Below, one piece after another: positions 37,065 to 37,601 of a stretch of 46,372 nucleotides of DNA. Under the pieces are notes generated by a model. That model was given only the letters and a program-made list of their open reading frames with translations, was not told the DNA's origin and made no database searches. The stretch is from Candidatus Jorgensenbacteria bacterium RIFCSPLOWO2_01_FULL_45_25b. Its GTDB lineage: Bacteria > Patescibacteriota > Minisyncoccia > UBA6257 > GWB1-50-10. The translations under genes were made by a program, and so were the position numbers. The DNA lies in assembly GCA_001781035.1 (NCBI GenBank), contig MFKK01000008.1, forward strand, positions 1 through 46,372, in the 5' to 3' direction. Positions within the stretch are counted from its first letter, which is position 1, and every line of letters begins with the position of its first letter.

Positions 37065-37601
37065 ATGCGTTTACAAACTAAAAAGGGGATTTACCCAGCA
37101 CCACTTTTTAACGTAAAAAGTGGTGCTGGGTTTACTCTCATTGAGGTTCTTTTGTACGCGGCTCTGCTCTCGCTCTTTTTCGGGTTTTCAATTGTTTCAA
37201 CGATTAATATTTTTTCCATGAACCGATTGTTTCTTGAGCGCACCGAAGTGTTGCAGAATCAGGAATTTATTCGGCAGAAAATTAGATGGGCATTTCATCA
37301 GGCGCGAGAGATTTCCGTACCCTCTCCAAACTTAAGTTCAGCAACGAATCTCACCCTTACCGCTTATGATTCTTCATTGAACCCGATTTCATTTTCTTTT
37401 TCATCCAGCAGTCTCTTGCTCTCGCTTTCAGGCGGAGAGCTTGTTCCTTTAGAGGGAGGCAGAGTTCGGGTTGCCAGTTTTCTCGCGGACCATCGGAGTT
37501 CCAGTCAGACCTCCTCAACGCTTATGGTTACAATCGGTTTGCAAAGCAGGCAAGACCCTCGTGTTTCTTCAACAGTTGTTTATTCACTTTCCTTTCCATG
37601 A
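37065..37601 (+). CDS. Type IV prepilin-like protein with hairpin-encoding leader
   Basis: GAGFTLIEVLLYAALLSLFFGFSIVSTI. Confidence 0.82.
   Translation: MRLQTKKGIYPAPLFNVKSGAGFTLIEVLLYAALLSLFFGFSIVSTINIFSMNRLFLERTEVLQNQEFIRQKIRWAFHQAREISVPSPNLSSATNLTLTAYDSSLNPISFSFSSSSLLLSLSGGELVPLEGGRVRVASFLADHRSSSQTSSTLMVTIGLQSRQDPRVSSTVVYSLSFP
37094..37130. repeat. Perfect 16-bp inverted repeat in the prepilin leader
   Basis: cccagcaccacttttt-aacgt-aaaaagtggtgctggg. Confidence 0.95.

Follow-up and report, generated by a model that had tools for sequence, protein, structure and literature searches.

What places palindromes of unrelated sequence at the same codons of neighboring prepilin genes? The question is raised by the window, by which we mean the whole stretch of 46,372 nucleotides analysed here, from a Candidatus Jorgensenbacteria genome. 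A perfect hairpin, ACCCAGCACCACTTTTTA-ACG-TAAAAAGTGGTGCTGGGT, lies in the leader of a third prepilin-like ORF of this stretch. An initial annotation, seeing different palindromes at one site, had argued for a shared mechanism or for a hairpin function that is under selection at this place. Our comparisons with related genomes favor, with a probability of about 0.8, the reading that Patescibacteria harbor a family of mobile palindromic elements and that the focal hairpin, one of its short and non-autonomous copies, is carried as tolerated cargo and not as a regulator.

A palindrome at a prepilin cleavage site

The hairpin had been described correctly at the outset, in sequence as well as in position. 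Its arms measure 18 nucleotides, compared with a longest perfect arm of 8 to 11 nucleotides in 20 simulated windows matched for size and composition, and its RNA folding energy has a z value of −6.0. An Rfam gathering search of the whole window returned 16S rRNA only, the hairpin matching no known RNA, and the exact arms have no other copy in their own genome. Within the ORF the hairpin encodes the peptide GIYPAPLFNVKSGAGFTLIEV. The ORF matches N_methyl with E=8e-4, just below the curated cut-off, and contains GFTLIEVLLYAALLSLFFGF, the G-F/A-T/S-L-I-E cleavage and N-methylation motif of prepilins followed by a hydrophobic segment. The ORF lies in a type IV pilus cluster (Table 1).

At the core of the hairpin is a 37-bp element that begins with CCC and ends with GGG. 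By sequence, it was inserted with a 4-bp duplication at the TTTA contained in GGN-TTT-ACN. Its last GGG is the glycine codon preceding the cut, and the duplicated TTTA is phenylalanine plus the start of threonine, so that the right TTTA and the terminal GGG together restore GGG-TTT-AC (Gly-Phe-Thr) and, with it, the motif for cleavage and methylation. The site was said to be that of the 80-bp elements in the neighboring prepilins, and indeed copies 2 and 3 of that element also lie at GGN-TTT-AC. Copies 1 and 2 are joined by four nucleotides (CTCA). Both the 37-bp and the 80-bp elements have perfect CCC...GGG arms, carry no enzyme gene and are shorter than ∼600 bp, as is typical of MITEs.

Preservation of the reading frame had been taken to be the same for both elements. 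This is true of the outcome and not of the route. For the 80-bp form, the element and its duplication add 80+4 = 84 nucleotides, a multiple of three, and thus keep the frame unaided. The focal insertion adds 37+4 = 41, which by itself is out of frame, and if its flanks are joined without the element, the present ATG is no longer in frame. A further one-nucleotide change or another start codon must therefore have kept the gene open, and this rescue fits the prediction of selection for an open reading frame, not that of frame-keeping by the element.

Table 1. Location of elements, genes and palindromes in the window
Feature	Coordinates	Strand	Remarks
T2SSF, type II secretion/type IV pilus inner-membrane protein	33784..34848	+	E=5.5e-52
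Prepilin-like ORF, 80-bp copies 1 and 2 in leader	34902..35522	+	
80-bp element copy 1 (CCCCGTTAGAGAG...CTCTCTAACGGGG)	34942..35021	+	tandem with copy 2
80-bp element copy 2	35026..35105	+	ends GGGG, then TTTAC, at Gly-Phe-Thr site
Type IV prepilin-like ORF, hairpin in leader (MRLQTKKGIYPAPLFNVKSGA-GFTLIEV...)	37065..37601	+	N_methyl motif
TTTA, left copy of 4-bp target duplication, focal element	37090..37093	+	
Perfect 18-nt arms of focal hairpin	37093..37110 and 37114..37131		
Focal palindromic element, CCCAGCACCACTTTTT-AACGT-AAAAAGTGGTGCTGGG	37094..37130	+	37 bp; CCC...GGG core
TTTA, right copy of 4-bp target duplication, focal element	37131..37134	+	
Prepilin-like ORF, 80-bp copy 3 in leader	38042..38638	+	GFTLIEV by eye; no Pfam match
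80-bp element copy 3	38121..38200	+	TTTA on both flanks
Y1 (RAYT/IS200-like) transposase gene, Y1_Tnp	20321..21016	−	
GAGATCGTAACTCG-family palindromes	20295..20323, 20838..20856, 21034..21085, 31523..31564		
Perfect palindromes TGCCTCAAACTTTACCGT/ACGGTAAAGTTTGAGGCA	38670..38711 and 39312..39355		42 and 44 bp
PaaX-like gene	38773..39291		
Perfect hairpin TTTATCCCCACACCTTC-GTGA-GAAGGTGTGGGGATAAA	43352..43389		upstream of 16S gene
16S rRNA gene	43621..45470		∼1850 nt
LAGLIDADG endonuclease ORF	45832..46257		E=1.6e-15

Related elements at unrelated loci

Elements of this kind, inverted repeats starting with CCC and ending with GGG, are present at many unrelated loci, where they are flanked by 4-bp direct repeats significantly above chance. 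The repeat is TTTA at the focal site and TTCA, TGAA, TATA, TCAA or CCTG elsewhere. In the 803-kb genome to which the window belongs, ends of the 80-bp element occur at about ten places. Elements of this type lie in prepilin leaders on C8 and C21, and intergenic copies lie between direct repeats of 4 bp, CCTG and TCAA among them. A tandem pair is inserted in frame, with TTCG, in a membrane-protein ORF that is not a prepilin (L020, G000:C32:13578-13741). This pair is near the N terminus, again preceding a membrane segment.

The focal family is found well outside its own genome. A scan of 85,488 species genomes for the paired arms AGCACCACTTTTT-N-AAAAAGTGGTGCT yielded 14 stretches, several of them from one genome: 12 from named Patescibacteria, one from Lachnospiraceae and one from an unassigned 'bacterium' (L045) whose sequence is identical to that of a class relative (L141). 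Three of the stretches are in prepilin leaders (L034, L040 and L041), and others are intergenic with TAAA or TTTA repeats. Among 392 genomes of the class, ACCCAGCACCACTT has 45 matches in 17 genomes versus 2 for the reversed control. The class genomes hold 34 distinct paired AGCACCAC elements, 7 of them in prepilins, with variable loops and lengths of 32–125 bp. An exact 4-bp duplication flanks 10 of the 34, compared with 2.5 expected by permutation (maximum of 8 in 2000), and is absent from about two-thirds. In one locus (L039, 2500-3100), two AGCACCAC elements reside in an apparent group I intron of a tRNA-Leu gene, and the setting at L114 is also group I intron-like. Viral contigs contain no paired focal hairpins; a single 15-mer arm matches 84 viral stretches, none of which has a second arm within 500 bp or a GIY-YIG gene, and these matches are thus probably due to chance.

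The window also encodes a Y1 transposase, with GAGATCGTAACTCG palindromes on both sides of its gene and one within the coding sequence; another member of this palindrome family lies 10 kb away. That a Y1 gene with palindromes of its own is so close could be taken to mean that the prepilin palindromes are REPs moved by this enzyme. We regard such an origin as exceedingly doubtful, given that the GAGATCGTAACTCG palindromes are unlike the focal palindrome and have no sequence in common with the CCC...GGG elements, which often have 4-bp duplications. Y1 transposition is not known to create target duplications. Two further perfect palindromes, TGCCTCAAACTTTACCGT/ACGGTAAAGTTTGAGGCA, bracket the PaaX-like gene and have ends of a kind other than CCC...GGG. 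The 16S rRNA gene has A+T-rich inserts in its variable regions and is followed by the LAGLIDADG endonuclease ORF.

Recurrent occupation of the Gly-Phe-Thr site

The proposal of convergence on one site survives a search beyond this locus: palindromes at this prepilin position recur in other Patescibacteria genomes. The pattern TTTACCC-N18-48-GGGTTTAC with prepilin codons after it was matched nine times in the 392 class genomes and never in the reversed controls. All nine are visibly palindromic and they belong to at least five sequence families (CCCCGTTAG, CCCAGCACCAC, CCCACACACC, CCCTCACACC and CCCCAGCACTAAC). Additional examples were found among the prepilins of element-bearing genomes. The same Gly-Phe-Thr codons are taken by short and by GIY-YIG nuclease-bearing forms, the occupants ranging from 35-bp hairpins up to 280-bp gene-bearing elements that have only 12-15-bp ends. 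For instance, each of three consecutive prepilins in G320:C27 contains a complete, in-frame 277-bp GIY-YIG element (one fusion reads GFTPLETTMFYTYVLRSKKDD...KNRLKRSLPLTG|FTLIE). The flanks at this locus (L210) are mixed, with TTCA on the left and TTTA on the right in two cases and the reverse in one, suggestive of recombination between copies.

Two congeners provide an empty and a filled version of the same prepilin. The sequence is MKKQKGFTLIELLVV in G369 and MKQQKGFT-QHQISK...RFGA-GFTLIELLVV (MKQQKGFTQHQ...RFGAGFTLIELLVV) in G319. Relative to G369, TTTA is duplicated in G319 and 83+4 = 87 bp are added. A second prepilin carries two AGCACCAC elements in G319, none in G369 and a different short palindrome in G400.

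The empty orthologous site and the duplicated TTTA in G319 also speak against the idea that one founder insertion was enough, after which gene conversion spread leaders and their palindromes from one prepilin paralog to another. Some exchange of this kind is suggested by the ∼50 bp upstream of the start codon that neighboring prepilins of the window have in common, and by genomes or loci in which several prepilins carry the same element (L041, G320, G257 and G145). However, neighboring prepilins in the window are occupied by different families, and as the explanation of the pattern we find gene conversion quite improbable. G257 (L236-L245) stands out for the size of its expansion, with CCCCAGCACTAAC or CCCCCACACC palindromes in the leaders of about ten prepilins.

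The other proposal holds that the palindromes act as RNA or DNA hairpins, controlling the translation of prepilins, the stability of their mRNA or recombination, and that selection favored convergent sequences in the leader. It fares poorly and is in our estimation very unlikely. Unrelated sequences do share one site, several neighboring prepilins of L041 do have hairpins in common, and the predicted RNA hairpins are strong (z values of −6.0, −4.2 and −3.0). However, orthologues in congeners lack a palindrome, and only about 6 of 73 prepilin sites sampled in the taxonomic family carry an element, in a sample that was partly picked by site sequence and does not give a clean rate. The range in size of the occupants, up to whole gene-bearing elements, also speaks against a selected hairpin, as does the presence of the same elements, with 4-bp duplications, in unrelated intergenic loci. 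As far as sequence comparison can tell, recurrence at the prepilin site is the product of a shared insertion mechanism together with tolerance. The shared mechanism that had been suspected finds its basis in the several families with CCC...GGG ends, often with TTTA duplications, at the same codons in many Patescibacteria, and in the pair of empty and filled sites.

Full-length elements encode a GIY-YIG nuclease

The 80-bp family has a larger, enzyme-bearing relative in its own genome. At C19:11814-12090, a 277-bp element flanked by TGAT repeats has ends nearly identical to those of the 80-bp element and contains a GIY-YIG nuclease gene, which is interrupted by one in-frame TGA; a second GIY-YIG element, on C37, is intact and has TGTA repeats. 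The domain is recognized as PF01541 (E=4.7e-14), and a solved relative is UPF0213 protein BH0048 (PDB 1zg2, E=4e-7). The active-site residues Y, YxG, R, H and E are conserved in the GIY-YIG proteins, which share their domain and catalytic residues with GIY-YIG homing endonucleases.

In the taxonomic family, 35 of 43 genomes have matches to the own-genome GIY-YIG protein. Inverted repeats tightly enclose (score of at least 12) 44 of 81 distinct GIY-YIG places in genomes of the family and the class, compared with 3 of 243 control places. The repeat-bounded element starts with CCC in 32 of the 44 cases, and 18 of these 32 have an exact 4-bp duplication; examples are TGAA|TCCCGTTAGAGA...TCTCTAACGGGA|TGAA, TTTA|CCCCCACACCAAATT...|TTTA and TTGA|CCCCGCACCTTTTCAGCAC...|TTGA. 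Full-length elements measure 280-330 bp (277 bp in the own genome) with one nuclease gene inside. Their insertion sites vary, and a preference for prepilins is present. The end classes GTTAG, CACC and GTAGT covary with nuclease clade: they require 5 changes on the nuclease tree, most inner branches of which are weakly supported, versus 17.6 after shuffling, with none of 200 shuffles as low. In the window, the hairpin that precedes the 16S gene has an arm, CCCCACACC, similar to GIY-YIG element ends of the CACC class.

For the focal family itself, no GIY-YIG gene with exact CCCAGCACCAC ends was found among the GIY-YIG loci from 19 genomes, and no mobilizer was found in its own genome, which is incomplete. 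The nearest nuclease-bearing ends are CCAGCTTCACTTTTGG (L169, G206), a near match, and G206 also has AGCACCAC hairpins. In L041, where neighboring prepilins share hairpins, a GIY-YIG gene that lacks a recognizable left end adjoins a hairpin-bearing prepilin. Because an exact nuclease partner was not found, the link between the focal hairpin and GIY-YIG elements rests on end style, target, co-occurrence and position.

Inverted repeats with 4-bp duplications typify DDE elements, and GIY-YIG enzymes are hydrolytic nucleases that, to our knowledge, are not known as transposases, so another enzyme could be the mover. The elements might accordingly be MITEs that depend on an ordinary DDE transposase, one with CCC ends and duplications of 4 bp, and GIY-YIG might be a mere passenger or an addition that serves homing. 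We consider this unlikely, because GIY-YIG is the sole substantial ORF between the ends of the full-length elements that were read, its active-site residues are conserved and its clades track the end classes. We infer that the GIY-YIG nuclease probably moves the elements.

Discussion

A duplicated target is evident at the focal TTTA, in part of its hairpin family and against an empty site in a congener. A mechanism consistent with these data would have the GIY-YIG nuclease recognize the element ends, which probably form hairpins, and cut both the ends and the target with a 4-nt stagger, whose repair would leave the 4-bp duplication. Short copies would be moved in trans by the nuclease. In prepilins, the peptidase would remove the lengthened leader, leaving the mature pilin unchanged and allowing the insertion to survive.

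The prepilin site may recur because TTTA or TTCA is a favored target contained in GGN-TTY-ACN, because the TTTA duplication and GGG restore the Gly-Phe-Thr peptidase site, and because the insert lengthens only the cleaved leader, the survivors being cases in which the frame is open. Spread by recombination among neighboring prepilins may contribute. Prepilin insertions are far denser than a 4-base target alone would lead one to expect. Since TTTA is insufficient for this frequency, a longer target, recombination between paralogs or biased retention must add to it.

Palindromic, MITE-like elements inserted in frame are a known kind, and Rickettsia offers a parallel. Rickettsia palindromic elements (RPEs) are small, lie in frame in protein-coding genes as tolerated extra peptides, and form several families per genome (PMC10969869). 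The palindromes described here are likewise in-frame insertions in coding genes, a comparison made from the descriptions. RPEs, however, are ∼150 bp long and occur in unrelated metabolic genes, whereas the host genes here are mainly prepilins with a recurrent cleavage site, and CCC...GGG ends, 4-bp duplications and a full-length form with a GIY-YIG gene set the present elements apart.

Like prokaryotic MITEs, these elements are short and non-coding, with terminal inverted repeats, a target duplication and longer relatives with the same ends, but the longer relative encodes a GIY-YIG nuclease instead of a DDE transposase. A MITE review makes no mention of GIY-YIG. The pairing of hairpin elements with a small, single-domain DNA-cutting enzyme in one genome recalls REP/REPIN-RAYT systems, in which the enzyme fold differs; direct duplications also distinguish the present elements. 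Their catalytic domain is that of GIY-YIG homing endonucleases and of UPF0213 single-domain proteins. Unlike homing enzymes, which are associated with an intron at one cognate site, they have inverted repeats and duplications at many sites, as well as gene-less relatives. The GIY-YIG partnership and the use of the prepilin site appear undescribed; the open literature searched held no description of such elements (GIY-YIG with palindromes, duplications, CPR/Patescibacteria or prepilin).

On balance we lean toward the broader view that stand-alone GIY-YIG nucleases mobilize a large, undescribed class of tiny transposons in Patescibacteria (280-330 bp, with CCC...GGG ends and 4-bp duplications) along with hairpin satellites, for which the prepilin cleavage codons would be a self-rebuilt safe harbor. 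The puzzling convergence of different palindromes on one set of pilin codons is explained by one kind of mobile element that rebuilds the cleavage site on insertion. If GIY-YIG is the mover, it would be added to the enzyme folds that mobilize DNA bounded by inverted repeats and target duplications, and the elements, at ∼280 bp, would rank among the smallest known self-encoded transposons. The numerous small GIY-YIG genes in Patescibacteria would become interpretable, and the elements would provide a natural record of pilin leaders that tolerate long extensions.
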